From a virus: a stretch of DNA of 61,426 nt. The notes under the pieces were generated by a model. It ran no database searches and was not told the origin of the DNA. It worked only from the letters and a program-made list of their open reading frames with translations. How positions within the stretch are numbered: the first letter of the stretch is position 1; every line of letters begins with the position of its first letter. A program made the position numbers and the translations under genes. Positions 244-61,289 of the stretch are shown in pieces. The stretch spans positions 1-61,426 of the IMG/VR virus record IMGVR_UViG_3300030116_002629; one strand, 5' to 3'.

Positions 244-410
244 TGGAAAATCTCGATAACTTATTTTGGGATATTATTGATAATGAATTTGGTGAACAAC
301 CATATGGTGACCCAATGCCACCTATGCCACCAATGCAAATAATTAAACCATTACCGAATATAATAATAATGATTACAGATGAGGAAGGAAATTATGGTAC
401 GGAAATCTAA
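243..410 (+). CDS. Small Pro/Met-rich conserved protein
   Basis: A 55-aa ORF starts with GTG, overlapping the portal stop. It begins MENLDNLFWDII and has a central stretch of Pro-Met repeats. The equivalent slot in copy B (47942-48100) encodes a closely similar 52-aa protein with an ATG start, and this conservation between diverged copies is the main evidence that it is real. No function is recognised. It overlaps the start of the following gene by 17 bases. It could be a small head or neck accessory factor, but that is a guess from position only. Confidence 0.7.
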   Translation: MENLDNLFWDIIDNEFGEQPYGDPMPPMPPMQIIKPLPNIIIMITDEEGNYGTEI

Positions 411-804
411 TAAAGGTGGTTACAGACAACCAACTCCTAGTAGGAAAAATGCTGTAAGTGGACCAGGTGCATTAAGTCAAAGAACTGATGGAAATCAACC
501 AGTTATGAGATTGCCAGATGCAGATTATGGTGAAAGTCAAGCTTTTGTACAACAACAACAAGGAGCTCCATTAGGAGATTCAGGAGGAGCTAATGCTCCA
601 TTTCCTTTGCCTGAAGCAGCAGGCCCAGATGTTTTCGGTGGAACAGATTTTCCAGACCAACCAGTAACGCAAGGAATACCAATGGGAGAAGGGGCAGGAC
701 CATCAAGAGATATAGCTAATAATGTTGATATATTGTTATCTGCTATGTATCAAGTAAATCCTCACCCTGTTATACTTCAATTATTAAATAGTAGAAGTAC
801 ATAA
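394..804 (+). CDS. Small virion-associated protein, unknown
   Basis: This encodes 136 residues. I start at the ATG at 394 because GAGGAAGGA lies just upstream and because the copy B homologue (48084-48494) starts at the same MVRKSNKGGY; an ATG 15 bases earlier is less likely. The N-terminus is basic, the middle is Pro/Gly/Gln-rich and probably disordered, and the C-terminus (DILLSAMY...NPHPVI) is strongly conserved with copy B. It sits between portal and the giant protein genes. No known family is recognised. Confidence 0.75.
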   Translation: MVRKSNKGGYRQPTPSRKNAVSGPGALSQRTDGNQPVMRLPDADYGESQAFVQQQQGAPLGDSGGANAPFPLPEAAGPDVFGGTDFPDQPVTQGIPMGEGAGPSRDIANNVDILLSAMYQVNPHPVILQLLNSRST

Positions 805-3800
805 TGTTTTTAGACCCCTTTCAGGTAGAGAGCTATTACATGGCTCAAAAGATGGAACAGGACTTAGTTAAGTTATATTCTAGTCCTGAGTTTAGGCCTA
901 TTCTTAATCAGCTACAAGCAGGTATGATTAGAGATTCTTTGGCTGCTCCAATTAAAGATAAACAATTAATTTTTGCTGAACAAGTTCTACCTGTATCAGA
1001 AACTCTTTCAAAACAAATGTTAGCTGATGAAGCTCAAGAAGAATGGGTATTACAAGAATCAAAAAACTGGGATGAGTTATCTGCAAAGTTTAGAGATGAA
1101 AAAATAACAGATGACATGCATCTTAGTGTTATGGATATACTTTCTGGTGGTTGGGCTCCAGGTGGTAGAACTCCTAAAGAAGTAGGTGGATGGTCATTGC
1201 CTATATGGGTAGTGGGTACTTTGGATGCAATTAGAGAGACTTGGAATAAATGGAATCCTTTACCAACTTCCGATGTATTACAATTTGGTGGTGGGGGTGT
1301 TCCTTATAGAGCACAAGGTCGTATTTGGAGATATTATCAAGACCTTAGAAGATATGATGAATTATTAGAAAAAGGATATACTCCAGAAGTAGCACAAGCT
1401 AATATAGCTTCTTTAGTAAATATATCTGAAGTTCCTAACTTAGGTAGAGATTTAGGCCCAGGAGAACTTGAACAAAATATTGATTTTATGCAAGAAGCAA
1501 TTAAATTTGCTGGAGAGAATTATATCTGGGCTGCAGCTAAAAAAGTTATGAATGGTGAAGCTGTCAATATGGATAGAAGCAAAGTATTCTTTTTTGAATC
1601 TATACATGCTGAAGAAGACCCAATATATCAAGAACTACTTTTGAAATTTAAAGGAGATGAACAGAAAGCTAAAGATTTATATTATTTAAAGATTGGTTCT
1701 CCTATCAAAGAACTAGATGCAAATGGAAATATTAATTACACAGGTATAGATAATCCTAACAAAATAAAAATATTTGCTGATAGAAGAACTAATTACAATG
1801 ATATGAATATTACTGAATATGCACAAAGAGAGTTTTTAAACGATGCTCAGTTAACTCCTTATTCATGGGGTAGATATGAAGCTGGCCAGATATATCAACC
1901 AGGTACAACTGCTTACAAAGTTACTTCTGGTTTATTAGATTTTGCTTCAGCTTTACCTGCTGAATATTTTACTGGTGGATTATTAAACTTAGGTAGGATT
2001 AAAAAATGGTCAAGAAGTACTGACATCTTAGTAGCTGAAAAAGCTAGAAGATTAAAAGCTGGTGATACTAGATATCTTGCTAACAAAAAAGAAGCTATTG
2101 AATTACACAATACAATTGTTAAAGCTACCAAAGATAGAGGTAAAGCAGGTAAACAAGCTTGGGATAATTTAACTCCAGATGAAAAGAAAATAGCTACTGC
2201 TTTAAATAATAATTCTGAAGATTTAGCTAAGCTACAATTAAACCCTACACAACTAGATGACTTAATACCGGAAGTTAAAAAAGCACTTAAACACGATAGA
2301 AAACTTAGAAGAAAACATGGTTTAATTAACGGTAGAGTTCAATCTGTATTTGCTAAAGATTCTGGTAAATTAATGGCTTTACCAGAATATCAAATAATTA
2401 GAAAACACATTGCTAATAGCGATTATCACACATTAGTAAATGATAATACTTTAAAACAATGGATACCTGATGATGCATTTTGGAAACATATTGTAGGAAA
2501 AGATGAATTAGAAATTGATAATATATTTAAAGAATTATTAAGTGATGGTGTACATTCAGCTTCATTAATACCTACTCAACCAAATACAGTCATACAAGCT
2601 AAAGGTTTACCTAAAGGTTTCTCTTACATGACTAATGCTGGTATTAGAAAAATGACAGGTAGTTCTGATTTTGCAATGAGAAGTTTAGGTTCTGTTTTAG
2701 GTGAACAAACTGCTGCTATTTGGCAAAAGAGTAAATTTGCAATGAGAACATTGAGGCATTATGACGATACTGTTCAACAAGCTAGAAAATATACACAAGC
2801 TTACAAAGTAACTGATGGTGCTGTTGATGGATTGTTTGATACAGTTAGTGCATTAAGGTTTTATTACAAAAATAAAATTGACCCTAGAAGTCAAAGTATT
2901 AAAAAATATTTAGGATTTAGTTCTAACTTTATGGATGGTTCTTCAGCTTGGGTTAAAAGAATGACAGCTTTAAGAACAGCAAACTATATGACTATGACAA
3001 ATGGAGTAGAAGGAACTAGACAGTTAATTGACAATATAAACTTAAATGGTTTTTCACCAGAGTATTTTAATAAAAAAATGGATGAATGGTTTAAAATCTT
3101 AGAAGCACCAATTGAAGAACAATATCGTTTAAAAAATAATTTCTTAATTGATTATATGGAAGATTCTATAAATCAATCTATTAAAGTTGTTAATGAAAGA
3201 GCTGAAGCAGCAGGAACTGTATATCAAGGTGAAAATATTAAGGCATTAAAAAAACATGCTAAAAAACTTATTACTGACTGGAATAGTGATAAAGCATATT
3301 GGAAGAGTTCTGGTTTCGATGGTGAAGATGTTTACAACATGGTATTTCCTGGTTCATCTTCAGGTATTCTTTATGACACTAAGAAAATGTGGTTGCAAGG
3401 AGAAGATTATAATATCATGGTACCTAAAGCTTCTACTTTAGGAGAAATGACTGAAAACTATTTCCCATTTTTAAATCAAGATATTGTAGATAGAGTTAAA
3501 GGAACAGGATTCTTTGCTTTAGATTCAAATGACCTTAAGAAATTTTCAGGATACAAAATGGCTAGACCTCATTATAAAGAATTTGTAAAAAGATTTAAAG
3601 CAAGTGGTAGTAAAGGTGTCAAACAATATGCAGCTGAAATAGGTGGATATATACCTACAAATAAAACAATGGATGATGCAGTTACATTGTTGTTAGATAG
3701 CTATACAAGAAAAATATTTAAACCTTTTGTTCTTATGAGAGCTGCTTTCATTACAAGAATATTCTTAGAGGAACAAGCTAGAGTAGCTTCTGCACAATTA

Positions 3801-6620
3801 GATTCAGCTTACAATCATCCATTTAGATATTTAACTTGGGTATTTTCTCATTCAGAAGACCAACAAAAAGCATTAATGAAAACATATGGAAACAATTTTG
3901 AAAATATTTTAAATAGTCCTGAATATAAACAATTGATGCATGAAAATCATTTTAAGAATTTACTAGCAGACCATAAGTATGATAATCAATATAAACATTC
4001 TTTTAAAGAAGTTACATTTGATGACCCTAACTATGCAGATGCAATTTATGATGGTTTATTTAAATTAAGAAATGATGAAGTAACAAGAAGAGTTGCACAA
4101 GAAGGTTCAGTATCACCAGCTCTTATTGAATGGTTTTTAGGAAGCAAAGAAAGACAATTACTTAGACAAAGAGGTGGGCCAGATTGGATTAAAGTTGCAA
4201 CAGATGATGAACATGCTATTGCTTATTTACATTCTAGAGAAAACCACATTAGACAATTAACTGGCCATACATTAGAAGAAGGTATTGATTATCAAAGATT
4301 TTCTTATAAAGATATGAAAAAGGGAGATGTAAATGCTTTTGAAGCAGCTCAATTAAGCCATAGAACAGATTCACAATATCATGGTCATCAAGTTCTAAGA
4401 GATGCTATTGCAGAAGGAAAATTTGTAACAAACGAAGGAAAGATTCTAGATTTAATGCCTGTAACAGATGATATAGGAACTTTAAAAGCTGTAGGTGTTG
4501 ATGACGAAAAAGCTATTAAAGATGCTATTCAAAGATACATAGACCAGTATGGAGATGATTTTGATTTTGGTACTTTATATCAAAAACAATTTGATAACGA
4601 AGTACAAGGTTTTGCTAAATTAGAAAAACAATGGGATGCTGGAGTAAACTTTTTCTTTGAAAATTTAGTAGAAAAATCTCTTAACTATTTAAATAGAAGC
4701 GTTGTCTTTAAACAGTATTATTGGGAAAAGATTATGGATATGTGGCACTTGTTTGATGCACCATTAAGAAAACAATATGTAGATGAAATCAAAGGTGTAG
4801 GATTAGCAGATATATTCAAAATAAATGAAAAAGGTACTGATTTAAAGAATGCTCCTAAATTAGGAACAAGATATGGTGTAAAAGATGCAAGTATTATAAG
4901 TGACACAGGTAAAGCTTTTGGTTTACAAGCTACAAAAGAATTGCTATATGATGTGACAAAGAGACATAACATATCTCATAAACTTAGAAACCTTGTACCT
5001 TTCCCAGAAGTTTGGTTTGAGTTATTAACTACATGGCCTAAATTACTTGCAGAAAATCCTACAATGGCCAGAAAGGTTCAATTAGGAATTAAAGGTGGAG
5101 CAGGAGCATCAGGCTTAGGATATACTGGTGATGGTTTCTTTGCAGAAGACCCTAATGGTTCAGGTGAACAAATGTTCGTATATCCATTTGGTGGCTATAT
5201 GAGTAACTTGATATTTGGTGAAGATTCAAATATTAAGATGTCACCTAGAGGATATGTTACAGGTGTCAACTTGTTAGGACAGGGTTTTGTTCCTGGACCT
5301 ACTCCTGTAGCTGGATGGGCCTTAGATAGAGTTCTACCTACTGGTGGAGTTGGTCAAGAACTTAGAAGTATGTTATTTGGTGATTTTGGACCTCCTAGAG
5401 GTGATGGTTTCTTGGATGCTATTATTCCTGACCACCCTTCATTTCAAAAGTTATTTACAGCTATAGGTGCTTCTCCATTTGGAAATCAAGCTGAAATAGA
5501 ATCATCAAGAGCAAGTACATCTATTGAATTGTTTAGATTACTTAAAATGGAAGGTGCAGAAAACAGATTACTTAAACAAGGAGAGTTAGATAGATATTTA
5601 AGAGAGATATCATGGAAAGGTACTACAGCTGATAAGTTACCTCCAGCTCAATTAACACCAGATATTTTAGATTCAGCATTAAGAGCATATGCTAAAGATA
5701 AAACAAGTACTACATTTACATTTAGATTTATGGCACAATTTGTGTTACCTACTGGATTTACACCTAGATATTATGCAGAAGATAAAAATGGAAAGATGTG
5801 GGCTACTCAGTTATTAGCTAAAGAGTATCAAAACTTAGTACAAAAACATCAAGGTGACCATGTAGCTGCATATGAATCATTTGTAAGATTGTATGGATAT
5901 GAGCATGGTTGGTTAACAACTTCTAAATCTGTATCTGCTAATAAACAAGCTTATTCTGAAAGAGTACTTGAATGGCAGAAAGAAAATAAAGAAATATTAG
6001 AACAATTACCTAGAAGTGCATTCTACGCTTTACCTGATAATCCAGCAGAACAAAGAAGTTATCAAGAAATAATTAGGCAGTATGAAATAGGAGAAAGAGA
6101 AGTCTTATCCTTAGAAGAGTTTAATTTAGCTGCTAATGATACTATTGGTTACTTTATGTACACATCATTTAAAAAGCAATATGAACGCTCTGGTATGCCT
6201 GAAATTGAAAAAAATAAGTTATTTAGAATTTATAGAACTGCTTTGATACAACAACTACCAGGTTTTGAAGCTACAGGTGGTTTAAGAAAGCCTGCTACTT
6301 CTAAAGAGATACTAGATGAAATGATTCAGAAATGGCCTAATTTACCTGAAATACAAGAAACAGAAGCAGGTGCTGCATTTGTTAATGTATTCTTACCTAG
6401 ATGGCAAGCAATGGAATCTCAATCAGCAAGAGTGTCTCCATCAGGAAATCCAACATGGTGGTTGTCATCTACAGATAATTTGGCTATTATGATGCGTGCA
6501 GATATGGCGAACTTTATAGAAGAAATAATAGTACAATCACCTGACTTTGCACCAATTTGGACTAATATAATTAGTAGAATGTTCAGAGACGACCATGAAA
6601 TGTTTAACGAAGGAATTTAA
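804..6620 (+). CDS. Giant internal virion protein, 1938 aa
   Basis: The start shares TAATG with the previous stop. The 1938-aa product is mostly alpha-helical in character with several Gly-rich and hydrophobic stretches toward the C-terminus, for example around PFPEVWFELLTTWPKLL and the following glycine segment. Copy B (48495-54302, 1935 aa) is homologous over its whole length. Size and position between portal and capsid suggest a protein stored in the capsid and ejected with DNA, like the large inner-core proteins of podoviruses; this is inference. The C-terminal third faintly resembles helper regions of large polyvalent phage proteins, but I could not test that. Confidence 0.7.
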   Translation: MFLDPFQVESYYMAQKMEQDLVKLYSSPEFRPILNQLQAGMIRDSLAAPIKDKQLIFAEQVLPVSETLSKQMLADEAQEEWVLQESKNWDELSAKFRDEKITDDMHLSVMDILSGGWAPGGRTPKEVGGWSLPIWVVGTLDAIRETWNKWNPLPTSDVLQFGGGGVPYRAQGRIWRYYQDLRRYDELLEKGYTPEVAQANIASLVNISEVPNLGRDLGPGELEQNIDFMQEAIKFAGENYIWAAAKKVMNGEAVNMDRSKVFFFESIHAEEDPIYQELLLKFKGDEQKAKDLYYLKIGSPIKELDANGNINYTGIDNPNKIKIFADRRTNYNDMNITEYAQREFLNDAQLTPYSWGRYEAGQIYQPGTTAYKVTSGLLDFASALPAEYFTGGLLNLGRIKKWSRSTDILVAEKARRLKAGDTRYLANKKEAIELHNTIVKATKDRGKAGKQAWDNLTPDEKKIATALNNNSEDLAKLQLNPTQLDDLIPEVKKALKHDRKLRRKHGLINGRVQSVFAKDSGKLMALPEYQIIRKHIANSDYHTLVNDNTLKQWIPDDAFWKHIVGKDELEIDNIFKELLSDGVHSASLIPTQPNTVIQAKGLPKGFSYMTNAGIRKMTGSSDFAMRSLGSVLGEQTAAIWQKSKFAMRTLRHYDDTVQQARKYTQAYKVTDGAVDGLFDTVSALRFYYKNKIDPRSQSIKKYLGFSSNFMDGSSAWVKRMTALRTANYMTMTNGVEGTRQLIDNINLNGFSPEYFNKKMDEWFKILEAPIEEQYRLKNNFLIDYMEDSINQSIKVVNERAEAAGTVYQGENIKALKKHAKKLITDWNSDKAYWKSSGFDGEDVYNMVFPGSSSGILYDTKKMWLQGEDYNIMVPKASTLGEMTENYFPFLNQDIVDRVKGTGFFALDSNDLKKFSGYKMARPHYKEFVKRFKASGSKGVKQYAAEIGGYIPTNKTMDDAVTLLLDSYTRKIFKPFVLMRAAFITRIFLEEQARVASAQLDSAYNHPFRYLTWVFSHSEDQQKALMKTYGNNFENILNSPEYKQLMHENHFKNLLADHKYDNQYKHSFKEVTFDDPNYADAIYDGLFKLRNDEVTRRVAQEGSVSPALIEWFLGSKERQLLRQRGGPDWIKVATDDEHAIAYLHSRENHIRQLTGHTLEEGIDYQRFSYKDMKKGDVNAFEAAQLSHRTDSQYHGHQVLRDAIAEGKFVTNEGKILDLMPVTDDIGTLKAVGVDDEKAIKDAIQRYIDQYGDDFDFGTLYQKQFDNEVQGFAKLEKQWDAGVNFFFENLVEKSLNYLNRSVVFKQYYWEKIMDMWHLFDAPLRKQYVDEIKGVGLADIFKINEKGTDLKNAPKLGTRYGVKDASIISDTGKAFGLQATKELLYDVTKRHNISHKLRNLVPFPEVWFELLTTWPKLLAENPTMARKVQLGIKGGAGASGLGYTGDGFFAEDPNGSGEQMFVYPFGGYMSNLIFGEDSNIKMSPRGYVTGVNLLGQGFVPGPTPVAGWALDRVLPTGGVGQELRSMLFGDFGPPRGDGFLDAIIPDHPSFQKLFTAIGASPFGNQAEIESSRASTSIELFRLLKMEGAENRLLKQGELDRYLREISWKGTTADKLPPAQLTPDILDSALRAYAKDKTSTTFTFRFMAQFVLPTGFTPRYYAEDKNGKMWATQLLAKEYQNLVQKHQGDHVAAYESFVRLYGYEHGWLTTSKSVSANKQAYSERVLEWQKENKEILEQLPRSAFYALPDNPAEQRSYQEIIRQYEIGEREVLSLEEFNLAANDTIGYFMYTSFKKQYERSGMPEIEKNKLFRIYRTALIQQLPGFEATGGLRKPATSKEILDEMIQKWPNLPEIQETEAGAAFVNVFLPRWQAMESQSARVSPSGNPTWWLSSTDNLAIMMRADMANFIEEIIVQSPDFAPIWTNIISRMFRDDHEMFNEGI

Positions 6621-8236
6621 TGTCTGATAATAATAAAGCAAGACAAAGAGGAATAAAGTTTAGGGAGTGGATTCTTAGCCTATTCAAAAACCCAGCAGCT
6701 CAAGATTATTTAGAAAATAAATATGGTATTACACCTGAAGTATTGCCTCAATATGGTATGTGGGATGCCAATATGGAAGATTGGGGATGGAGTTTTAATC
6801 TTGGACCAGATGGATTCTTATCTAGTGTTGTAATATCTGGAGTAGAAATTCCTATTAAAGAACTTCCAGGCTATGAAGAAGGTTTTAAACAACCATTAGG
6901 TGGTACAGGATTTTGGGGTGGTGTATTTAATTTACCTGCAGAATGGGCTGAGTATGATGTAGAAGCTTTACCTGAAGGTACTGTAAATGTTTTACCAGAA
7001 GCATATGGACCAGCTGAAACTCCTGGTGCAGAATTTTATGGTGAAGCTACAGGTGAGATACAAGAAGAGATGGATGCTGAAGAAGCAGCTGACCCTGATT
7101 TTCAAGCTTTAAAAGAAGGAGCAGTAGAAGAAGAAGAAAAAGAACCTTCATTTTTTACAAGGGAAGATTTTGAAAAAAACACATTATCTGAAGAAGAATG
7201 GAATACTTATCTAGCTAATATTAAAGCTGGTAGTACACCACAAGAAGCATGGGCTTATGCTACAAATGGTGACCCAGCTAAGTTTAATTATGTATGGACA
7301 TGGGATGAAGAAGCAAAGAGAAATAAACCAGCTTATTATTATGACCCAGAAATTAGTGAAAGTCCAATTCCAATACCTGTAGCTGCTCAGCCAAGTGAGC
7401 ATATAAATAAAAATCTTTTTATGAGTGGACTTCATAATATGTCTCCAGACGAAATTGAATGGGTAAAAGATTTCTTGATTATGGGTGGTGTAGCAGATGA
7501 AGGTGATTTTGCTGGACATGGTTTTGTTGATAGAAGTTTAGAATTAATTGTAGGAAATATGATTGATATGGCCAATATGAATTATGGACATATTGCACAT
7601 AAAAGCGATGATTATTATAAATTAATAGAATCTGGAAAAGGACTTTTTGGTGATAATCCACCTGCTATTTTTGAAGATTCAAAATGGTTTGAATGGGGAT
7701 TGTTTTCAGTAGTTGCTTCACAATATGGTATGACCATGGATAAAGCTGCTGAAGTTAAAGCAAAAGAAATAGCAGAAGATACATTAGCTGCTAATGCATT
7801 GCCAAGTAAAGAATCAATGGCTCGTGCTATTAATGATTTAGTTAAAGAAGAAATAGGTGTTGATGCTACTCCAGAACAGGTAAGAGAGTATACAGATTAC
7901 TGGATAGCTAGTCAAACTGAATGGGGTAGACAAATAGAATATGCAAATAAAGTTGCAGAAGTCGGAATGGATATAGAACATTATCATATTAAAACTGGTA
8001 GGACTATGACCATGGAAGAAGTTCAAGCAATGAGAGATGATATAGGTGCTGGAGGAGATGTTTTAGAAGGAATAGTAGGTCAAAGAGAAAAAGTTCCAAC
8101 AGTTACAGACCCTTGGACTGCTACTTACAATTTAGTTGTAGGTGATTTAGCAGGTGAAAAAGAAATTATAGAGGCTGGTAGGAAAAAGAGAGCTAAGCAA
8201 TCTGGTATCTTACAAGCAATGGCAGGTAAGTTTTAA
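6620..8236 (+). CDS. Large acidic virion-type protein, 538 aa
   Basis: It is coupled to both neighbours by TAATG overlaps. The N-terminal 100 residues are Trp- and Gly-rich; residues about 140-200 are very acidic; the rest is helical. The copy B counterpart (54302-55852, 516 aa) has a different N-terminus but a similar C-terminal part, including a shared DDI.AGGDVL.GIVG.RE motif near the end. No family is recognised. From its place in the giant-gene operon I infer a structural or ejected protein. Confidence 0.65.
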   Translation: MSDNNKARQRGIKFREWILSLFKNPAAQDYLENKYGITPEVLPQYGMWDANMEDWGWSFNLGPDGFLSSVVISGVEIPIKELPGYEEGFKQPLGGTGFWGGVFNLPAEWAEYDVEALPEGTVNVLPEAYGPAETPGAEFYGEATGEIQEEMDAEEAADPDFQALKEGAVEEEEKEPSFFTREDFEKNTLSEEEWNTYLANIKAGSTPQEAWAYATNGDPAKFNYVWTWDEEAKRNKPAYYYDPEISESPIPIPVAAQPSEHINKNLFMSGLHNMSPDEIEWVKDFLIMGGVADEGDFAGHGFVDRSLELIVGNMIDMANMNYGHIAHKSDDYYKLIESGKGLFGDNPPAIFEDSKWFEWGLFSVVASQYGMTMDKAAEVKAKEIAEDTLAANALPSKESMARAINDLVKEEIGVDATPEQVREYTDYWIASQTEWGRQIEYANKVAEVGMDIEHYHIKTGRTMTMEEVQAMRDDIGAGGDVLEGIVGQREKVPTVTDPWTATYNLVVGDLAGEKEIIEAGRKKRAKQSGILQAMAGKF

Positions 8237-11200
8237 TGGCTGAAGGAATTTCAAAAGAAGAGTTTATAAAGGCGTTAAAAGCTAATACTACAATACCTGA
8301 AGCTGCAAAAGCTACTTTGATAGAAGCATTAGAAAATGCACCAGCTAAACAAAAGTTTGATTCAAGAGTAAAAGATTATCTAGATGGAATAAAGAACGGA
8401 TACTTAGAAGTAGATGAATTAATAGGTTTCTTAGAAGATGAATTTGGATATGATAAATTTTCAGGAACTTTTGGTGACCCAGAAGCAGCCAAAGAAGTAA
8501 CAAAGAAAGCTAAAGAAACTACATCTAAAGAAGCTCAAGCTAAAGCTGATAAAGTTACTGAAGCTCCAGATGTTGCTAAACAAGCTGTATTAGAAGGTAA
8601 AGATAAGAAAGTTACACTTGTTGACGAATGGAAAAGAGCAGATGTTAAAAAAGATGTAGGTTTCTTGTATTTGTTTGGTGACAATCTTGCAGATGCTGAA
8701 AGTGGAGTTATTCCTAAAAGTACACAAGCTGTAATTAGAGGTTTAGAAAATGCTATAGGTATTCCAACAAGAATATCAAAGAGTGAAGATTTTCAACCAG
8801 AAGATTTTGAAAGATGGAAAGAACTAATTGATGAACAATTGGCATTAGCTGAAGCTGATGGTAGGCCAATTAAAATATCTAAAGGTGGTATGGCTACAGA
8901 TAAAGGTAAAAAACTTCCTGCTAATTTTAAAGAACATTTAGCTATAAAAATAAATAATTTAGCTGGAGAAGAATTATTTGGTCCAGATATGAAACAAGGA
9001 ACTTCTAATACATCAAAAAGAATAGTTGCAAGTGGAGGTACAGTACGAGCTATGCGTGGTGGTGAATTAGGTAATCCATTTTATTATAAAGGTAGTGGTA
9101 AATCAGATGAAATAGTAAAAGTAGGTACAGATAAATCTTCCACCGTAGTAATGCCAGAAGGAAGTACTGAAGATGATTTAGTTAAAAAAGTTGTTGAGCT
9201 ACATAAAGACTGGTTAACTTGGACACGATTACCTGATAATTTAGATGATGACCAATTGTTTGAATTACAAGCCCTGAGAGATAAACAATTAAGAATTATG
9301 GCTAATTTACCTGATGATTATACATTAGAATATTACAGACCAGATGCTGAATCTTCGCATGCTAAAACATTAGTAGATTTTATAGATAATGCAAAAAAAG
9401 ATATGGAGGAAGTAGATAGAAGTACTATAGGCCAAAGTGATGACCCTTATTTTGATACATCAAGAGATGTGTTAGACCTAACACTTGAACTATCAAGTAA
9501 AGGAGATGAGTTTGGTCAACAGTTCTCTGCTTTAAATGCTACTTTTAAAGAAGGTGAATATGCAGGAAGAACTATAGAAGATGTATGGCAAAATGAAATT
9601 AAAAAATCTGGTAAAGGTAAACCACCTGCAGAAGGAAGTGTACTATTTGGTAAATCTCTTGAAGATAGTAAACTTGCTTATCAAGAATTGTGGGAAATGT
9701 GGGCTGTTGAGAATCCTAGATTAATAGCTGAGTTACAAGATAAAGTTAATGAAGGATATCAATTAACAGATTGGTATGCAAGAAATAAAGACCCTAATAA
9801 AACAGTAAATCAAGCAGAAGCTTTAACTAACATAATTTATAATTTAAATAATGAAGAAAAAGCTATCAAAGCAGATGATGCTAAAAGTAGACAAGTTCCA
9901 TTTGAAAAGGTAAACGCTAGTGACCCAGGACCTGGAGCATCAAGAGCACAATATGATAACTGGGCCGTAAGAACTGGGGATAATTATTTAGCTGCTGCTA
10001 AAGCAGAAGGGTTTACTCTTGACTTTACTACTGAAGATAAAGGTAGTGGTAGTACTAAGAAGTCAGGTACTTATGAACCAAACTTAAAAATAATGAGAAC
10101 ATTTCCTCATTTAAAAGGATTAACTGATGAAGAAATACTAAATGCAACTTATAAACAAATTAAATTAACAAAAGACCTTAAATTTGCAAACCCAGATGAA
10201 GTAGCAGAAATAGCTGCATTAGTAGCAAAAGCTTTAAACAATGGTAAAACAATTAATGTTGCAGGTAATCAAGTGTATAGGTTTCCAGGTAAAACTCAAA
10301 ATGATGTCGATAGATTGTTTGCAGAATTTATGGATATGGTTCAAGATAATCCAGTTACTGATTGGAGTAATGCTGTTATTAGAAGTGGTGGCCAAAATGG
10401 ATTTGATTTATCTGGTTTAAGATGGGCCAACTTCTTTAAAATACCTTTTAGATTACATACTGGTAAAACTAAGTTATTTAGAAAAATAGGTGGTGGAGAT
10501 GTAGTAGGTGATATAAATGAATTTATTCCTTTATTACAATTTGATGAAAATGGTAAATTTAATAATGAACTATTAAAAGCACCAAAGAAAACTACTTCAG
10601 TTGATAAAGCTACAACTCAACCAAAAACAACTGAGAAGTTACCTCCTGATACTAGTAAAACTCTTAAAAGGTTAAACAGCGAATTTGAAAGTGTTAAAAA
10701 TTCTCCTAAAGCTATTAGAGACCAATGGTGGAAATCATTAACAGATATGGAAAGAGATTATATTAAAACCATTATAGAAAAGAAAAATGTTAAAGCATCA
10801 GCTGCAGGTACACCAGATGTTAAAGCAGTAGCAGAACCAGATATACCTACTAGAAAAACAGGACAAATGGAACTAGAACATTTTTGGTTAGATAAAGCAT
10901 ACAATGAAACGATACCTGTTTCAAGTATTGATGGTGCTTCTAGTTGGAAACGATATGTTGCTTATGGAACTAAAATATACGATTGGGAAACAAATCAAAG
11001 TAATTTAATAAATGGGAAAGCAGCTGGAACAGCATATGAACCTGTACAAATATTAAGAGGTTATCAAAAAGGTATAGTACTTCCTGAGACAATGGCTGAT
11101 ATAACTAAAAATCCTCAAAGTTTTGTTAAGGATGGAGAAGCTACTTGGCAAAGAACAAAACCAGGAGAATACGACCCTAGAACAGTTCAAAGTGTAGATA

Positions 11201-12792
11201 AAAAAACTGGTGAAGTTAAAAAAATACCAGGTGTTGAACCAGTTAAATTAGAAGGAGGTTCAGCAGAAGTTAAAGGTTTAATTCAAGAAGGAGACATTAT
11301 AACTGCAGGATTTGCAAGTGACGGTGAAAAAAATATTCTTAGATATGTTAATCAAATAACAGATGTAGGAGCTAGGCCTGCAGGTGGATTAGGTGTTAAT
11401 TATGGTGTACCAGTTAAAGTAGTAAAAGCTTGGCAATTACCAGAACAAATTACTGAAGAATTTTTTGAAACACCATTAGCTAAAAAAATGGCTGAATCTT
11501 TAAATCTTACCGAAGAGGCATTAAGAGAAAAATTAATGCTTGGTAAAAAGAATAAACAAGGTCAAAATAGTATGCAACCTTTTAATTCAAAGAAATTTTG
11601 GAATGGATGGTTTTATGAAATAGAACCTATTGCATTGAATGATGAAAATTATAAATGGGAAGAAGTACAACAAAAACATTTACAAGCTGATATTGAAACA
11701 GATGTTGCTATAAAGAACTGGATGGGTCATAAATATGGAATAAAAAACTTAGCTGCAGTTGGTGGTTTATTAATGAGACTAGCTCCTATAGTTGATTATG
11801 GTGAGTATGCATATGGTTTTGGTGTTAAAGGTTTTAATGCTTTAGTTAAACAAGCAGAGAGAGGATTTATAGCAGCTCAAGCTAATAAATGGATACCTGG
11901 AAATATGATATATTCTAAATTAGCTAGAGAAGTTGGAGATGTAAGAAAAGGCCTTTTACCTAAAACTAGAGGTTTCTTAGGTGAAATGGGTACTAGAGCT
12001 AAAATTACAGGATTTGGTGGTAGAGAAGCAGCTAAAGGAGCACATACAACAGGAGAACTTTTTCAAAGTAAAATAGGTAAGAGAGTAGTAGCTAGGCCTG
12101 CTACAGGTACAGTTAGAGCTGTAGGTTTGTATGAAAAATATAACTTCCTTTATGGTTTAGCTTCTGGGTTGTTGTTATCTTCAATAGAAGCATTAGGTAT
12201 TATTTCTAGAGATACTATTGGTGAAAATAATATCAGAACTCAACTAGGTGGAGATTATGAAGCATGGGCTGAAAGCAATGGAATCTTAGATAAAATAGGA
12301 CCTTGGCCATTAATATCTAGTTTGGAAAGAGCTGAGTCACTAGGTTATTTAGATGAAGGATTTACAGAAGATTATATTAATCAAACAAATACTAAATGGA
12401 TGGGAGTAGTACACGAATTTCTAGGTACAGAACATTATGACCAAATGGATAAAGTTAATGTTATTTGGCAAGATGGCAAAAGACCTAGAGGTTGGTTTAC
12501 TAGTTTCAATGATATCTTTGGATTAAGTTCTGATGGTGCAATAGCAAATGCTGGTGTTCTTCCTAGAACTGGTTTAGCTCCTGCTATTAAAAGGTCTCCA
12601 ATAGTTTCAGGTATTGAGATACCATTTGAGAATTGGTTCTTACCTAAAGTAGGATTAGAAAGCTGGGTAACAGAAGATAGGCCTGCAACAATTCAAGATG
12701 AAGAAGATTTAGCTAATCAAATAGGACAAATACCTGCTACAGTAGATAATAACGCATGGTTAGGAAACATAGCTGACTTTGGAGATTATTAA
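8236..12792 (+). CDS. 1518-aa virion protein with N-terminal enzyme-like cargo domains
   Basis: The N-terminal half looks like a chain of small domains. Residues ~142-255 contain LYLFGDN, QAVIRG and GIPTR, as in phage FGDN-type (DUF7831-like) proteins. Residues ~268-385 have RGGELGNPF and VVELHKDWL, as in DUF4326. Residues ~430-540 resemble a phage domain with GKGKPP and WAVENPRLI. Residues ~675-755 contain IRSGGQNGFD, as in YpsA/SLOG-type nucleotide-binding folds. These matches are from memory. The C-terminal ~350 residues, with a hydrophobic patch near YNFLYGLASGL, are conserved with copy B (55852-58386), which is only 844 aa and lacks these domains. It is probably a capsid-stored protein delivering enzyme cargo. 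Confidence 0.65.
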   Translation: MAEGISKEEFIKALKANTTIPEAAKATLIEALENAPAKQKFDSRVKDYLDGIKNGYLEVDELIGFLEDEFGYDKFSGTFGDPEAAKEVTKKAKETTSKEAQAKADKVTEAPDVAKQAVLEGKDKKVTLVDEWKRADVKKDVGFLYLFGDNLADAESGVIPKSTQAVIRGLENAIGIPTRISKSEDFQPEDFERWKELIDEQLALAEADGRPIKISKGGMATDKGKKLPANFKEHLAIKINNLAGEELFGPDMKQGTSNTSKRIVASGGTVRAMRGGELGNPFYYKGSGKSDEIVKVGTDKSSTVVMPEGSTEDDLVKKVVELHKDWLTWTRLPDNLDDDQLFELQALRDKQLRIMANLPDDYTLEYYRPDAESSHAKTLVDFIDNAKKDMEEVDRSTIGQSDDPYFDTSRDVLDLTLELSSKGDEFGQQFSALNATFKEGEYAGRTIEDVWQNEIKKSGKGKPPAEGSVLFGKSLEDSKLAYQELWEMWAVENPRLIAELQDKVNEGYQLTDWYARNKDPNKTVNQAEALTNIIYNLNNEEKAIKADDAKSRQVPFEKVNASDPGPGASRAQYDNWAVRTGDNYLAAAKAEGFTLDFTTEDKGSGSTKKSGTYEPNLKIMRTFPHLKGLTDEEILNATYKQIKLTKDLKFANPDEVAEIAALVAKALNNGKTINVAGNQVYRFPGKTQNDVDRLFAEFMDMVQDNPVTDWSNAVIRSGGQNGFDLSGLRWANFFKIPFRLHTGKTKLFRKIGGGDVVGDINEFIPLLQFDENGKFNNELLKAPKKTTSVDKATTQPKTTEKLPPDTSKTLKRLNSEFESVKNSPKAIRDQWWKSLTDMERDYIKTIIEKKNVKASAAGTPDVKAVAEPDIPTRKTGQMELEHFWLDKAYNETIPVSSIDGASSWKRYVAYGTKIYDWETNQSNLINGKAAGTAYEPVQILRGYQKGIVLPETMADITKNPQSFVKDGEATWQRTKPGEYDPRTVQSVDKKTGEVKKIPGVEPVKLEGGSAEVKGLIQEGDIITAGFASDGEKNILRYVNQITDVGARPAGGLGVNYGVPVKVVKAWQLPEQITEEFFETPLAKKMAESLNLTEEALREKLMLGKKNKQGQNSMQPFNSKKFWNGWFYEIEPIALNDENYKWEEVQQKHLQADIETDVAIKNWMGHKYGIKNLAAVGGLLMRLAPIVDYGEYAYGFGVKGFNALVKQAERGFIAAQANKWIPGNMIYSKLAREVGDVRKGLLPKTRGFLGEMGTRAKITGFGGREAAKGAHTTGELFQSKIGKRVVARPATGTVRAVGLYEKYNFLYGLASGLLLSSIEALGIISRDTIGENNIRTQLGGDYEAWAESNGILDKIGPWPLISSLERAESLGYLDEGFTEDYINQTNTKWMGVVHEFLGTEHYDQMDKVNVIWQDGKRPRGWFTSFNDIFGLSSDGAIANAGVLPRTGLAPAIKRSPIVSGIEIPFENWFLPKVGLESWVTEDRPATIQDEEDLANQIGQIPATVDNNAWLGNIADFGDY

Positions 12793-14033
12793 TGGAAGAA
12801 AATAAAGCACAAATACTTAAAGTTGTAGATGCAGATGGAAATGAAACTGGTGATTTTTATGTCATTGTAGATACAGGTGGAGTTAAATTTGTATTTAAAC
12901 CTACTCAAACATATGAAGAAACATTAGAAATATATAAAGATGTTATAGAAGTAGAAGAAACAGATTCAACAGAACTAGATTTTGAAAAAAGATTTATTGA
13001 TGATGATTTAATGGTGTATTGGGGAGACATAGACCAGTACACAGATACTACTGAAGATGTTATTAACAGTATTAAAACAGCTAGTGCTAATGAATCATGG
13101 TGGAAAAATGAGAACTTTAGAAATGCTTATGTAGATATCTGGGAAAATAACTATGATGATGTTACAGATGTATTTAATTCTGACCAATTCCTTGCTGATT
13201 TAAGAAACTCTAGTGCTATAGGTGCTGCATTTGGTGAAGATGGAATAACTAAAGCAACTTGGAATAGGTCTATTGATGAAAGATTAAATCCAGAACAATT
13301 TATATTGGATGATGATTTTGCAAAAACAATGGTATATGAAACAGCTATTGCAGGTTTAGGTCCTGATGGTGCTGATATTGTTAATGACAATAAAGATTTA
13401 AAACGAACTTTAGATTTGTTAGCCTTTAAATACAACAATGGACATTTTGGTGAAGTAGGTAGTGATAATGCTAAAGCACATTTGAGTGTTCAAATTACAG
13501 CTTTGATTGACCCTTCATCTAGATTAGAAAATGGTGGTTATTATGAATTAGAATCAGATGTAGCTAATTCTATTGATGGTATAGAAATACCAACTACTAC
13601 TAGAAAAGAAAGTGAAATACAAGAAATACTTGACCAATGGGTACCAGAAAATCAACATAGTACATTTAATGTAGCTGATGAAGCTGCAAAGTTAAGAAGA
13701 AATCCTTTGTATAAAACAGAATTCGTTGAAAAAGCTAAGGATGCTAAATTTGCACAATACCCTATGTATGATAGAAATGTAGATTGGACTACTGTTTTAA
13801 ATAGAGGTATAGCTTTAATTGAAAATGCTTGGGGAACTACTCCAAAAGATGGTGACCCTATCTTACATGAAGTATTAACATTAAACGATACTAATAAAGC
13901 AAATGCATATTTGAAAGCTGAAGGTTTGAAAATAGGTAATGAAAAGGTTAGTAACGATTATGCTAAAGCTGTAGCTCAAGCTTACGGTGATGATATAATC
14001 AGAACACCTGGATATGTGGAAGGAAGGCCATAA
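12792..14033 (+). CDS. Virion-type protein, 413 aa
   Basis: It starts by TAATG overlap. The sequence is acidic and rich in Asn/Asp, with a repeated W-containing helical pattern. It is homologous over its full length to copy B 58388-59608; shared features include D.GGV.F.FKP near the start, FIDDD.LVY.GD, and a C-terminal HEV..LND motif. No enzyme motif is visible. I infer a structural or ejected protein from the operon context. Confidence 0.65.
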   Translation: MEENKAQILKVVDADGNETGDFYVIVDTGGVKFVFKPTQTYEETLEIYKDVIEVEETDSTELDFEKRFIDDDLMVYWGDIDQYTDTTEDVINSIKTASANESWWKNENFRNAYVDIWENNYDDVTDVFNSDQFLADLRNSSAIGAAFGEDGITKATWNRSIDERLNPEQFILDDDFAKTMVYETAIAGLGPDGADIVNDNKDLKRTLDLLAFKYNNGHFGEVGSDNAKAHLSVQITALIDPSSRLENGGYYELESDVANSIDGIEIPTTTRKESEIQEILDQWVPENQHSTFNVADEAAKLRRNPLYKTEFVEKAKDAKFAQYPMYDRNVDWTTVLNRGIALIENAWGTTPKDGDPILHEVLTLNDTNKANAYLKAEGLKIGNEKVSNDYAKAVAQAYGDDIIRTPGYVEGRP

Positions 14034-15010
14034 TGGCACAACCATTTGTTGAAGGCGAAAATTTACAGATATGGTTATATTCTCCTGATGGACAAAGAGT
14101 AAAAAAGCAATCGGGTAGAAGAAAAGGTGAAAACCAATCTGAAGCTGATTATTTTATTAATGAGTTAGGTTATACAACTTATAATCCTAAAGCTGGAAAA
14201 ATAGAAGATATAAGAGACATAGAAGAAGGCACACAGCGTGCTAATCTCTTATTTAGTTTTATGCCTGAATCAGTTAAGAATGAATTTGCTAAATCATGGG
14301 TAGAATTAGGAGATGTTGAATTAGCTAAAGCTAAAGCTAGAACTACACCTGCATGGGAAAAAGAGTTTGGTTTTTTAAGAAGAAAAGATGGTTCTTTAGT
14401 TATGTCTGAAATAGAAGCTGTAGCTACTAAAGCAGCTTATAGAGAAACATTAGGAGAAGTAGGTATTGTAGATACTTCAGGATTTGAACAACAGTTTGAA
14501 CAGATGATTACTGGTGAAGTATCAGCACAAGAGTTCCAACAAAGAATAGATACTGTATGGAATACTGTTAAAAACAATATACCTCAAGTAGAGTCAATGT
14601 TTAGAAATCAATACAATATAGATTCAGATACTCCTACTATATTTGCTGCTTTAATTAATCCAGAGATACAAGATAAATTATTAAAAGGTGATTTAGTATC
14701 ATTAAGCATAGGAGCAGAAGCTAAAGCTGGTGGCTTTAATAGAAGTTTTGCAAGATTTGATGCACTTAGAAAAGCTGGTTTAGACCAGAAAGGAGCTAGA
14801 CAACTATATCAAACAGCTGAACCATTACTTGAAAGAGCTGGTTCAATAGGTAATGCATTAGGTATAGAGACATTAGAAGCTGCTGCTGTAGGTGACATGA
14901 AAGCACAACAACAAGTATCAAGAGCACAGTCAGAGATACTATCCGAAAGTAGTACTGTGGTAGGAGCTGCTAAAAATAATAAACAAGTTAGTGGACTTTT
15001 AGAACAATAA
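14033..15010 (+). CDS. Virion-type helical protein, 325 aa
   Basis: It begins with a TAATG overlap and is the last gene before the structured leader. It is well conserved with copy B 59608-60582 from about residue 65 onward (FMPESVKNEFAKSWVE, REQYNIDSDTPTIFAALINP-type segments), while the first 60 residues differ. It is helical, with an Ala/Gln/Ser-rich C-terminus ending VSGLLEQ. No function is recognised. The bases encoding its last residues also hold the -35-like element of the capsid-operon promoter. Confidence 0.65.
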   Translation: MAQPFVEGENLQIWLYSPDGQRVKKQSGRRKGENQSEADYFINELGYTTYNPKAGKIEDIRDIEEGTQRANLLFSFMPESVKNEFAKSWVELGDVELAKAKARTTPAWEKEFGFLRRKDGSLVMSEIEAVATKAAYRETLGEVGIVDTSGFEQQFEQMITGEVSAQEFQQRIDTVWNTVKNNIPQVESMFRNQYNIDSDTPTIFAALINPEIQDKLLKGDLVSLSIGAEAKAGGFNRSFARFDALRKAGLDQKGARQLYQTAEPLLERAGSIGNALGIETLEAAAVGDMKAQQQVSRAQSEILSESSTVVGAAKNNKQVSGLLEQ

Positions 15011-15019
15011 GTGTATAAT
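14992..15019 (+). promoter_or_regulatory. Putative promoter of scaffold-capsid operon
   Basis: A TATAAT at 15014-15019 lies 16 bases downstream of TGGACT at 14992-14997. The same pair with the same spacing is present in copy B (60564-60591), although the transcribed bases just after it differ. Transcription would start near 15026, just before the first predicted stem of the leader. Confidence 0.55.
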
Positions 15020-15217
15020 AAAGTTTAAGCGTTGCAAGGTCCGCTTTAAATGACCGCAAACCAGCTTTCAGGGCCTGCGTAGAAAGCTTGTACTAAAACC
15101 GCAGAGTAAGGACTTAGGATTAAAACCCTACCAGATTCTAAGTCAAGTGTGAAGGTAGGGCCGCAACTAATAGCCACGGGATTAGTTTGTAAGGTAAAAC
15201 CGTGTGGAGGTACGATT
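15020..15217 (+). ncRNA. Tandem four-pseudoknot leader RNA, copy A
   Basis: Four pairs of interleaved complementary segments lie in a row. A: AAGCG 15027-15031 with CGCTT 15042-15046, crossed by GGTC 15038-15041 with GACC 15052-15055. B: AGCTTTC 15063-15069 with GAAAGCT 15082-15088, crossed by CTGCG 15075-15079 with CGCAG 15100-15104. C: GACTTAG 15111-15117 with CTAAGTC 15138-15144, crossed by CCCTACC 15126-15132 with GGTAGGG 15154-15160. D: AACTAAT 15165-15171 with ATTAGTT 15181-15187, crossed by CACGG 15175-15179 with CCGTG 15200-15204. The ribosome-binding site follows directly. Function is unknown; control of scaffold/capsid translation is the obvious guess. Confidence 0.75.
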
Positions 15218-15682
15218 ATGAGTGAATTTGACGGTATAGAAAATACTGGCGTAAAAGCAATGCGAGATACTATTGACCGCAAAAATGAAGAGATAGCTAA
15301 ATTACAAGCTGAACTTCATGAGCATAAGGATGCAAAACTAAATACTGTTGTAAAACAGATAGGTTTAAATCCAGACAATGGTTTCGGTAAAGCATTAAAA
15401 CAAGTGTATGACGGTGACGCAACAGTCGAAGCTGTCAGTGAGTTTGCTAAAACTGAGTATAGTTATGAGCCAACAGGAGGATTTCAGGAAGTCACACAGA
15501 CTGAACTCCCACCAGTAGTTCAAGACGATGCAAGGGCTAGAGTAGCTTCACTTGATGATTATTCACAAAGTGATGTGCCAAGAGATGTTCTGAACGACCT
15601 TCAGGAAATCATTGCAAAGGGTACTCCGAAAGATAGTATCCGTGCAAAACTTACTCTGATGGAAGACGAAAAGAACAAATAA
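15218..15682 (+). CDS. Scaffold-like capsid assembly protein
   Basis: This encodes 154 residues. The ATG at 15218 is chosen because GGAGG lies at 15206-15210 and the copy B start (60788) is equivalent; longer versions would run into the structured leader. Residues ~10-45 form a charged coiled coil (IDRKNEEIAKLQAELHEHKD), followed by an acidic middle and a basic C-terminus. A coiled-coil acidic protein immediately before the major capsid gene is the usual place and style of a scaffold, but no family signature proves it. Confidence 0.65.
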   Translation: MSEFDGIENTGVKAMRDTIDRKNEEIAKLQAELHEHKDAKLNTVVKQIGLNPDNGFGKALKQVYDGDATVEAVSEFAKTEYSYEPTGGFQEVTQTELPPVVQDDARARVASLDDYSQSDVPRDVLNDLQEIIAKGTPKDSIRAKLTLMEDEKNK

Positions 15683-15717
15683 GTATAAGTACAAGATAGA
15701 GTTTACGGAGGTAAATT

Positions 15718-16842
15718 ATGGCAGCAATTACGCTGACTAATAACGCTATTTACTCACAGAAGATTAATAACTTTTCTGGTGAGTTATTCCGTGTAGGTGG
15801 TCAAAGAACTCCTTTCTTATCTGCAACTGGTGGATTAAACGGAGGTAAGGTTTTACAATCTACTTTCTGGCAAATCCAAGCAGCTGACAGTCACACAGTT
15901 TCTTCTGAGCCAACAAAAGGCCAAGAAGGAGCACAACCAACTGAATATCTCGGAAGAGATAGAGTTGCGTACACAGGTGTGACTCAGGTATTCCATAAAG
16001 GTGTCAAGATGACCTATACTGCAATGGCGACTTTTCAACATCAAAATCCATTTGACTTGAGTGCAAATATTATTAACTCATCAGATGGTGACGGAACAGT
16101 TACAGCAGCTGATAAATTATCATTATCAGGTGGTAACCCAATTGTTGATGAGTTCTCAGAACAACTAACTCTTGCTCTTGAAAAAGTAGCTCGTGAGGTT
16201 GAATGGTTCGCATTCAATGGTACTTTTGCCGATGGTGCTAATACAACACCAGGTTCAGGTACTCGTGAAATGAGAGGTATTTCAGAATATATTGCATTAA
16301 ATGCTAATGCTAATAACTCAACAGCTCCAGTCGCAACTGGCGGAAACATTTATTATAATGACTCTTCTGGTGACGGTTCTGGTGCTGCTAGAGTTCTTTC
16401 ATGGGATGCAATCGCAGGTGCTATGAAGCGTCTATATGATGCTCACGCACCAATGATTCAACCAGTGCTTTGTGTAAATCCAAAGCAACTACTTGACCTT
16501 AACAAGGAATTGTTAACTGGTACAGTAGGTATTACTGGAACTATCCTACCAAGAGATAGAAGTATCGCTGGTATCGACATTGATACTATCGTTACTCCTT
16601 TCGGTGCAATTGGTCTTATGGTCATCGACCCTAACATCATGCCTGCCGATTGTGCATTTATCCTTGACTTTGCTTTCATACAACCAGTATTCACAAATAT
16701 CCCAGGATATGGTACTGTGTTCGTGAGAGACTTAGACCAAGACGATTATGCAAGAGTTGGAAAAGCAGTTTACATGGAAATGGGATATGACTTTGGTCCG
16801 CCAAGTTATCATCTCAAATTCGTTGATGCTGATTCAGCATAA
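15718..16842 (+). CDS. Major capsid protein, HK97-fold (SU10/DUF5309-like)
   Basis: It is 374 aa, preceded by CGGAGGT. The N-terminal part has RTPFLSATGG, the middle has RDRVAYTGVTQVFHKGV, and there is a later TREMRGISEYI segment; this series resembles the DUF5309/SU10-type major head proteins, which have the HK97 fold. Codon use here contains more C and G at third positions than in neighbours, as often seen for the most highly expressed virion gene. A terminator hairpin follows the stop. Its first ~45 codons are repeated at the right end of the window. Confidence 0.8.
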   Translation: MAAITLTNNAIYSQKINNFSGELFRVGGQRTPFLSATGGLNGGKVLQSTFWQIQAADSHTVSSEPTKGQEGAQPTEYLGRDRVAYTGVTQVFHKGVKMTYTAMATFQHQNPFDLSANIINSSDGDGTVTAADKLSLSGGNPIVDEFSEQLTLALEKVAREVEWFAFNGTFADGANTTPGSGTREMRGISEYIALNANANNSTAPVATGGNIYYNDSSGDGSGAARVLSWDAIAGAMKRLYDAHAPMIQPVLCVNPKQLLDLNKELLTGTVGITGTILPRDRSIAGIDIDTIVTPFGAIGLMVIDPNIMPADCAFILDFAFIQPVFTNIPGYGTVFVRDLDQDDYARVGKAVYMEMGYDFGPPSYHLKFVDADSA

Positions 16843-16859
16843 ATAAAAAATTGAAGATT

Positions 16860-16888
16860 AGGGTGGGAATCCACCTCCTGCCCTTTTC
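16860..16888 (+). terminator. Terminator after the capsid gene
   Basis: GGTGG 16862-16866 and CCACC 16871-16875 form a stem with loop GAAT; AGGG at 16860 can also pair with CCCT at 16881-16884, and TTTTCTT follows. It lies 18 bases after the capsid stop and just before a new promoter, so it probably separates capsid expression from the tail genes. Confidence 0.6.
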
Positions 16889-16891
16889 TTC

Positions 16892-16900
16892 TGCTATAGT
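16892..16900 (+). promoter_or_regulatory. Extended -10 promoter before the connector genes
   Basis: TGCTATAGT is an extended -10 element. The ATG of the next gene is at 16910, so a start point about seven bases after the -10 gives a leader of only two or three bases, in effect leaderless. No good ribosome-binding site is present between the two. Confidence 0.5.
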
Positions 16901-20251: not shown

Positions 20252-20803
20252 ATGACAGCTCAAAACTTAAATTATAGCAACTTTTTTGAAACTACTTTAG
20301 ATGGTGCAGTAGGTGCTTCAGATGGAAACTTTACACTTACAGCAGCACCTACAAGTAATGGTACCGCTGTTATATCTGCACCTTTTTATTTAGTAATAGA
20401 CCCTGATAGTGCAACTAAAAGAGAAGTAGTATTAGTAACAGCATCATCAACTACAACTATGTCAACTGTTACTAGAGATGTAGAAGGCAGACATTCACCA
20501 GACCCATCACATGATGATGGAACTGTTGTTCGTATGTCAGTAGTTGGAGAAATGTTTAAAGATTTACATGACCAATTAACAGCAGGTACATTAACTTTAA
20601 CAAATAAAACTTTAACAACTCCTACATTAACAAGTCCTGTATTAAATACAGGTGCTAGTGGTACTGCAATTAAAGATGAAGATAATATGGCATCTAACTC
20701 AGCTACACATTTGGCAACACAACAATCAATTAAACAATATGTAGATACACAAGTATCTGCTAATTCAGGTGCAAGTCTTGGACTTGTAATAGCTTTATCA
20801 TAA
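20252..20803 (+). CDS. Tail fibre / fibre-attachment protein
   Basis: It is 183 aa. The N-terminal ~90 residues are beta-rich (NFFETTLDGAVGASDGNFTL), as in fibre attachment domains. Residues ~110-135 are a repeating TLTNKTLTTPTLTSP-type segment, very common in shafts of marine phage fibres. The C-terminus contains ATQQSIKQYVDTQV, a typical trimeric fibre signature. It opens the fibre cluster and overlaps the next start. Confidence 0.65.
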   Translation: MTAQNLNYSNFFETTLDGAVGASDGNFTLTAAPTSNGTAVISAPFYLVIDPDSATKREVVLVTASSTTTMSTVTRDVEGRHSPDPSHDDGTVVRMSVVGEMFKDLHDQLTAGTLTLTNKTLTTPTLTSPVLNTGASGTAIKDEDNMASNSATHLATQQSIKQYVDTQVSANSGASLGLVIALS

Positions 20804-47942: not shown

Positions 47943-48100
47943 TGGAGAATTTAGATAATTTGTTTTGGGACATTATTGATAATGAATTTGGTGAAAATCC
48001 ATATGACCCAATGATGCCTCCTATGCAAATAATAAGACCATTACCTAATATAATAATAATGATACAAGGAGAGGAAGGTTATTATGGTACGGAAGAGTAA
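47942..48100 (+). CDS. Small Pro/Met-rich conserved protein (copy B)
   Basis: It is 52 aa with an ATG in a TAATG overlap with the portal stop. MENLDNLFWDIIDNEFGE is shared exactly with 243-410; the Pro-Met part is shorter by one repeat. It overlaps the next gene by 17 bases, as in copy A. Function unknown. Confidence 0.7.
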   Translation: MENLDNLFWDIIDNEFGENPYDPMMPPMQIIRPLPNIIIMIQGEEGYYGTEE

Positions 48101-58386: not shown

Positions 58387-58387
58387 A

Positions 58388-60591: not shown

Positions 60592-60787
60592 AGACATTAA
60601 GCGTTGCAAGGTCCGCTTTAAATGACCGCAAATCGGCTTTCAAGCCTGCGTAGAAAGCTTGTACTAAAACCGCAGAGTAAGGACTTAGGATTAAAAACCC
60701 TACCAGATTCTAAGTCAAGTGTGAAGGTAGGGCCGCAGCTAATTGCCACGGGATTAGTTTGTAAGGTAAAACCGTGTGGAGGTACGA
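60592..60787 (+). ncRNA. Tandem four-pseudoknot leader RNA, copy B
   Basis: All eight stems of copy A can form: 60599-60603/60614-60618 and 60610-60613/60624-60627; 60635-60641/60653-60659 and 60646-60650/60671-60675; 60682-60688/60710-60716 and 60698-60704/60726-60732; 60737-60743/60753-60759 and 60747-60751/60772-60776. Only two paired bases differ from copy A, both A to G opposite U, so pairing is kept. Two single-base length changes fall in loops. GGAGG at 60778-60782 follows. Confidence 0.75.
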
Positions 60788-61249: not shown

Positions 61250-61289
61250 ATAAGTATAAGTACAAGTTAAGAGTTTACGGAGGTAAATT

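Follow-up and report, generated by a model that had tools for sequence, protein, structure and literature searches.

The window analysed here is the whole 61,426-nucleotide stretch of virus record IMGVR_UViG_3300030116_002629. At 15027-15204 its sequence holds eight perfect complementary segments, arranged as four consecutive H-type pseudoknots (PK1 to PK4, each with helices S1 and S2). This leader has a sigma-70-like -10 box before it and the Shine-Dalgarno sequence of a scaffold-like gene after it, with the capsid gene next, and it lies between the end of a 325-aa gene (15010) and the ATG of the scaffold-like gene (15218). The features of the locus, and of a second copy of the leader, are as follows.

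14033-15010: upstream 325-aa gene, its end overlapped by the predicted promoter
14992..15019, plus strand: predicted sigma-70-like promoter (TGGACT, 16 nt, TATAAT), 10/12 in a consensus scan
15014-15019, plus strand: TATAAT box of the predicted promoter
15027..15055, plus strand: PK1, from the sequence; S1 AAGCG 15027-15031 with CGCTT 15042-15046, S2 GGTC 15038-15041 with GACC 15052-15055
15063..15104, plus strand: PK2, from sequence and covariation; S1 AGCTTTC 15063-15069 with GAAAGCT 15082-15088, S2 CTGCG 15075-15079 with CGCAG 15100-15104
15111..15160, plus strand: PK3, from covariation of both helices; S1 GACTTAG 15111-15117 with CTAAGTC 15138-15144, S2 CCCTACC 15127-15133 with GGTAGGG 15154-15160
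15165..15204, plus strand: PK4, from covariation of both helices; S1 AACTAAT 15165-15171 with ATTAGTT 15181-15187, S2 CACGG 15175-15179 with CCGTG 15200-15204
15206..15210, plus strand: Shine-Dalgarno GGAGG, from the sequence, one base past PK4
15218..15682, plus strand: gene for a scaffold-like protein of 154 aa (phrog_7813, E 7.6e-9, function unannotated)
15718..16842, plus strand: gene for the major capsid protein, 374 aa (phrog_1328 major head protein, E 1.7e-25)
16853..16891, plus strand: terminator-like hairpin behind the capsid gene (core 16860-16884), from a terminator scan
16892-16900, plus strand: TGCTATAGT, directly past the hairpin
60599..60776, plus strand: second four-pseudoknot leader, upstream of a second scaffold gene, with -10 box 60586-60591, Shine-Dalgarno 60778-60782 and ATG 60788

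The label scaffold-like is suggested by the position of the gene directly before the capsid gene, as for the head scaffolding gene in phage Bernal13. The terminator-like hairpin behind the capsid gene was found in 89/94 distinct relatives, with TGCTATAGT next in most, and because this conserved hairpin ends it, the scaffold and capsid pair looks like a transcription unit of its own. The loop of the hairpin is a conserved TCCACC; in the window it reads CCACCTCC, which is similar to the 16S rRNA anti-Shine-Dalgarno.

The second leader copy is 94% identical to the first over 60583-60795. The ends of the window (1-15854 and 47709-61426) are diverged copies of one late-gene arm, 66-86% identical where alignable, so that the contig holds about 1.3 genomes; it is probably two strains joined in assembly. 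Two such loci also occur on the relatives' contigs 3300025769_000167, 3300020468_000009 and 3300030106_001776.

Two overlapping sets of related stretches, 218 and 217 in number, came from searches of the virus collection with the capsid protein, and 80 of each were taken for reading; two loci in one Actinomycetota metagenome-assembled genome (MAG) were also matched. This gave 154 capsid-bearing loci with readable upstream DNA, some sharing a contig, which carry 115 distinct leaders. All 154 have a pseudoknot leader. Three types account for nearly all of them: type A with four pseudoknots (60 loci), type B with three (45) and type C with three (47). One further leader is an A/C mosaic, and another (L070) shows the type A design in PK1 and PK2 at least. 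A reading of the window made from its sequence alone had described eight perfect segments in four crossed pairs, spanning promoter to ribosome-binding site before the scaffold and capsid genes. The segments are exact in position, and both the pairing and the placement recur in the relatives. Four is the number in type A; as a general number it does not hold, three being the count in two of the three main clades.

The leader stays with these genes when it is searched for by its own core patterns, which for types B, A and C match 78, 97 and 89 stretches. Among 158 checked matches to the B and A patterns, a capsid gene lies 700-900 nt downstream in 127, and most others either show a scaffold gene before the contig ends or sit on contigs that are too short; six matches away from scaffold and capsid are chance matches in GC-rich DNA. 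For the C pattern, scaffold or capsid was seen in 76/80 checked and the remaining four end too soon. The units PK1-PK4 are mutually dissimilar (pairwise similarity z -1.8 to 2.7 vs shuffles). Variants of the basic types were also seen. Leaders L157 and L264 are mosaics in which PK1 and PK2 of type A design are joined to a type C PK3, whose inner stem reads CAATCA/TGATTG in place of TAAT/ATTA, and in a subset of type B (L193, L090, L173 and others) a short GAAA- or GTAA-loop hairpin is inserted between PK2 and PK3 (GAGTG-GAAA-CACTC, columns 124-138 of alignment A3).

By DNA, no relatives were found among sequenced phages, and plasmids yielded none. Capsid relatives among sequenced phages share 24-29% identity and belong to phages of actinobacteria and to unplaced phages. 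In the three of these that were examined for gap length, 68 nt (Bernal13), 101 nt (Dulem virus 32) and 267 nt (Propionibacterium phage G4) precede the gene in the scaffold position. The two MAG loci, L167 and L168, are on contigs of one Actinomycetota MAG (RS345, ~1.1 Mb), and these contigs may be just co-binned phages. Other genomes of the MAG's order were searched and none had a capsid match; an actinobacterial host is therefore merely a hint.

How far the window sequence itself supports the fold was assessed with a tandem-pseudoknot chain score, built from stacking energies under liberal rules and compared with 300 dinucleotide shuffles. The leader scores 56.0 vs 27.8 +/- 5.4 for the shuffles (max 48.3; z 5.3). 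However, the shuffled leaders average 3.7 weak pseudoknots under the same rules, so that it is the strength of the stems and not the count of pseudoknots that is remarkable; the earlier argument that four crossed pairings are very unlikely by chance does not survive this comparison. In a sliding scan of both strands of the whole window the two leaders supply 9/10 top windows, the sole other being a minus-strand window in a coding region (20307-20506). Perfect stems must score alike on both strands, and those of the leader do. The nested minimum-energy fold of the leader is no better than that of shuffles (z 0.0). The single-sequence evidence for the chain is thus only moderately convincing.

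The comparative evidence is far stronger. In the type A alignment (51 distinct sequences, 46 pairs) 95.5% of the proposed cells are paired, while slid structures pair 30-43%, and two-sided changes occupy 115 cells vs 23.6 in shuffles. The corresponding figures are 96.7% paired and 200 vs 62.4 two-sided cells for type B (57 sequences, 35 pairs), and 97.3% and 94 vs 26.2 for type C (31 sequences, 31 pairs). On capsid trees, parsimony puts the two-sided canonical changes at 39, 76 and 51 in types A, B and C, set beside 32, 41 and 16 steps into or out of an unpaired state, counts that recombination between leader and capsid would inflate. An all-column-pairs test similar to R-scape found 0/46, 3/35 and 3/31 pairs significant, with almost no power. 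For this reason, and because kinship among sequences misleads simple shuffles, two extra tests were used. The first compares column pairs within the structure with all others. Canonically co-varying pairs make up 11/46 of the structure in type A, 9/35 in type B and 9/31 in type C, against 85/21945, 45/18528 and 39/13695 among all other column pairs; they are 62-106 times commoner in the structure (Fisher p 7e-17, 5e-16 and 7e-16, respectively). The second keeps the change count of each column and moves the changes to random branches (200 runs). The two-sided scores were 3.56 v 0.50+/-0.21 (A), 4.24 v 0.58+/-0.28 (B) and 3.81 v 0.67+/-0.29 (C), and in each clade 0/200 runs of this null reached the observed score.

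Helix by helix, the support is unevenly distributed. In type A both helices of PK4 covary (0/200 null runs attain the observed score of either one), as do both helices of PK3 (1 and 2 of 200), and PK2 S2 shows A-U/G-C exchange (1/200). PK1 S2 is invariant in this type, PK1 S1 has few compensations and PK2 S1 has only wobbles. In the per-helix test, PK2-S2, PK3 and PK4 thus stand out in this type. Both PK1 helices covary in type B, where both helices of PK3 also stand out in the per-helix test; in type C, PK1 S2 and PK2 S1 covary and PK3-S2 is weaker (8/200). PK2 S1 is replaced with compensation in L157/L264, and PK1 of L174 has wholly different letters with the design kept (CACTGA/TCAGTG with AGGATAG/CTATCTT). 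Helices with too little variation or none within a clade (PK1 and PK2-S1 in type A, PK2-S1 in type B, PK2-S2 in type C) are therefore predicted from the other clades and from such replacements. Taken as a whole, we regard this comparison of sequences as decisive for the predicted pseudoknot chain.

The structured form is the sense RNA, since G-U cells exceed A-C cells by 233 vs 21 in total (81 vs 8 in type A, 108 vs 8 in B, 44 vs 5 in C) and the other strand would reverse the ratio. A structure in single-stranded DNA or in antisense RNA is ruled out by the same excess. As to coding constraint, the closed ORFs that the leaders contain are short, with medians of 21-27 aa. Loop lengths suit compact H-type folds except in PK3 of type C, which is less compact and has a U-rich L3, and the L3 loops of types A and B are A-rich (A 0.38-0.61 vs 0.35 genome-wide). 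Near-invariant stretches include the PK2 stem of type B, the type C loop TTAATTACCT[A/G]GCG and segments between the knots. A switch in which PK3 exchanges Shine-Dalgarno and anti-Shine-Dalgarno pairing (TACC with GGTA) was also considered, and was dropped because L022 breaks the pairing without compensation.

Spacing at either end of the chain is narrow. Measured from the end of the -10-like box to the first base of PK1, the distance is 7-9 nt in type A, 8-11 nt in type B with few exceptions, and 7 nt in 29/31 of type C, so that 7-11 nt covers nearly every leader. From the last pseudoknot base to the ATG there are 11-13 nt in type A, 18-20 in type B and mostly 17-18 in type C. In type C, four values of 7 trace to an ATG that lies within AAAAGATGG, and these start codons are probably misread.

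No Rfam family matched the window at its gathering score, nor the leader at E up to 5, and ARAGORN found neither tRNA nor tmRNA in the window. The leader shares with tmRNA the presence of four pseudoknots in one RNA but is without a tRNA-like domain or tag ORF, and the sequence-only reading was right to set tmRNA aside. The nearest described design is STAXI (RF01728; Weinberg et al. 2010), a pseudoknot unit of bacterial and mobile DNA that forms tandem arrays of two or more, usually three, often with UUCG loops; genes for SSB, integrases, topoisomerases and antirestriction proteins lie nearby (PMC2864571). STAXI repeats one unit, whereas the phage units are non-identical, stand in an mRNA leader and always precede scaffold and capsid; a search of the phage's own genome for STAXI gave 0 matches, though the control genomes gave none either. 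ToxI-type RNAs of type III toxin-antitoxin systems are tandem pseudoknot units upstream of a gene that are processed. Their repeats are identical and are cut by the toxin, while the phage leader has non-identical units before scaffold and capsid, and no toxin.

Among phage mRNA leaders, that of T4 gene 32 also carries an H-type pseudoknot close to its 5' end and ahead of the ribosome site. It lies 67 nt upstream of the start codon, with an RNase E cut at 71 nt, and the gene 32 mRNA is the most stable T4 mRNA (PMC3014915). Covariation and position place pseudoknots of the phage leader likewise upstream of the ribosome site. However, gene 32 has one pseudoknot, bound by its own single-stranded DNA-binding product, and is another gene with no similarity recognised. 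The E. coli rpsO (S15) translational operator, likened here by description, contains a pseudoknot (PMC3014915), but only one, and the gene under its control encodes a ribosomal protein. The upstream pseudoknot domain of tobacco mosaic virus has three pseudoknots in a row within an untranslated region, and they affect replication and translation (PMC4683447); that domain, however, is in the 3' UTR of a eukaryotic RNA virus and adjoins a tRNA-like structure. No paper combining tandem pseudoknots with phage came up in a literature search, subscription journals being mostly beyond its reach. Pseudoknotted leaders and tandem pseudoknots are both known; their combination and this leader family are, on these searches of Rfam and the literature, not.

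As to function, we tentatively favour, at slightly below even odds (about 0.45), a cis-acting 5' leader that shields the 5' end of the scaffold-capsid mRNA and keeps its ribosome site open. Transcription would start ~7 nt past the -10 box, so that the RNA would begin inside PK1 or a few bases before it, and a 5' end placed there would deny a free end to 5'-end-dependent nucleases. With such a start the chain spans about +1 to the Shine-Dalgarno and leaves almost no single-stranded RNA up to that point; since it stops at the edge of the ribosome footprint, the ribosome-binding site would stay open. 5'-terminal stem-loops stabilise bacterial mRNA, and the T4 gene 32 mRNA offers a precedent (PMC3014915, PMC3997798); the leader together with the conserved 3' hairpin could thus yield an mRNA that lasts long and is translated well, for the virion protein made in greatest amount. 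A single simple hairpin could serve as a 5' stabiliser, however, and a chain of three or four pseudoknots points to a more specific role. The near-invariant parts (the type B PK2 stem, the type C loop) exceed the needs of a pure shield, and loops that hardly vary in some pseudoknots suggest additional recognition of the RNA by a protein or by the ribosome.

The main rival takes up this last point, although we consider it rather unlikely: a translational operator, in which a phage or host protein (the scaffold, the capsid, a ribosomal protein or a single-stranded DNA-binding protein) binds the pseudoknots and sets scaffold and capsid output through the last one, by the Shine-Dalgarno. The near-invariant stretches in PK2 and between the knots, the exclusive link to scaffold-capsid and the end of the last pseudoknot 11-20 nt before the ATG would suit it, and there is precedent in gp32, which binds its own leader pseudoknot, and in S15, which acts on rpsO mRNA (PMC3014915). 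Against this, no regulator candidate is singled out, the best known phage operator uses one pseudoknot and not three or four, and the Shine-Dalgarno is unpaired in the structure model. We think it improbable that S1 and S2 are instead alternative hairpins of each unit, chosen by ligand, temperature or ribosome. Covariation fits simultaneous and alternating helices alike, but most units have classical H-type loop lengths, and an A-rich L3 is expected of a loop lying in the S1 groove, as types A and B have it and type C PK3 does not.

The position of the leader right at the predicted transcript start, with its narrow spacing, and the conserved hairpin downstream would also be compatible with processive antitermination of the put type (phage HK022), polymerase reading through the post-capsid hairpin into the tail genes. 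Put RNAs are two simple stem-loops that need not end at a ribosome site, and past the hairpin TGCTATAGT is a promoter-like box from which the tail genes may start on their own; such a role seems to us unlikely. Least credible, at long odds, is a stable RNA processed off the message, whether trans-acting, packaged or working as a decoy against host nucleases or defence. The compact fold is probably nuclease-resistant and type III toxin-antitoxin systems do have processed tandem pseudoknots, but the terminator scan gave no terminator-like site at the leader, no processing signal was seen, the chain continues into the ribosome site of the gene, and the leader is always in cis before scaffold-capsid with no toxin gene adjoining. 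The earlier suggestion of a packaged RNA finds no support here; effects on translation or mRNA decay are plausible. As a speculative further idea, which we rate as a long shot, the leader could correspond, in bacteria, to a viral IRES: a modular rod of already folded pseudoknots that docks on the mRNA exit side of the 30S subunit and lends scaffold-capsid translation priority, its modules interchangeable as in the A/C mosaics L157 and L264.

The leaders make up an RNA family absent from Rfam 15 and present in every readable relative of this uncultured marine phage group, on well over a hundred contigs, and an mRNA leader consisting almost wholly of non-identical tandem pseudoknots before virion genes was not found in the literature searched. 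Because nested folding gives z 0, pipelines without pseudoknots would miss such leaders. The natural series of modular pseudoknots with compensatory variants offers a test bed for the control of mRNA decay and ribosome loading by leaders. Lastly, elsewhere in the window, a MoxR-like AAA ATPase gene (38244-39017, Pfam AAA_5) lies on the minus strand within 36752-39017, where it adjoins a 503-aa gene of the unknown family phrog_33218.
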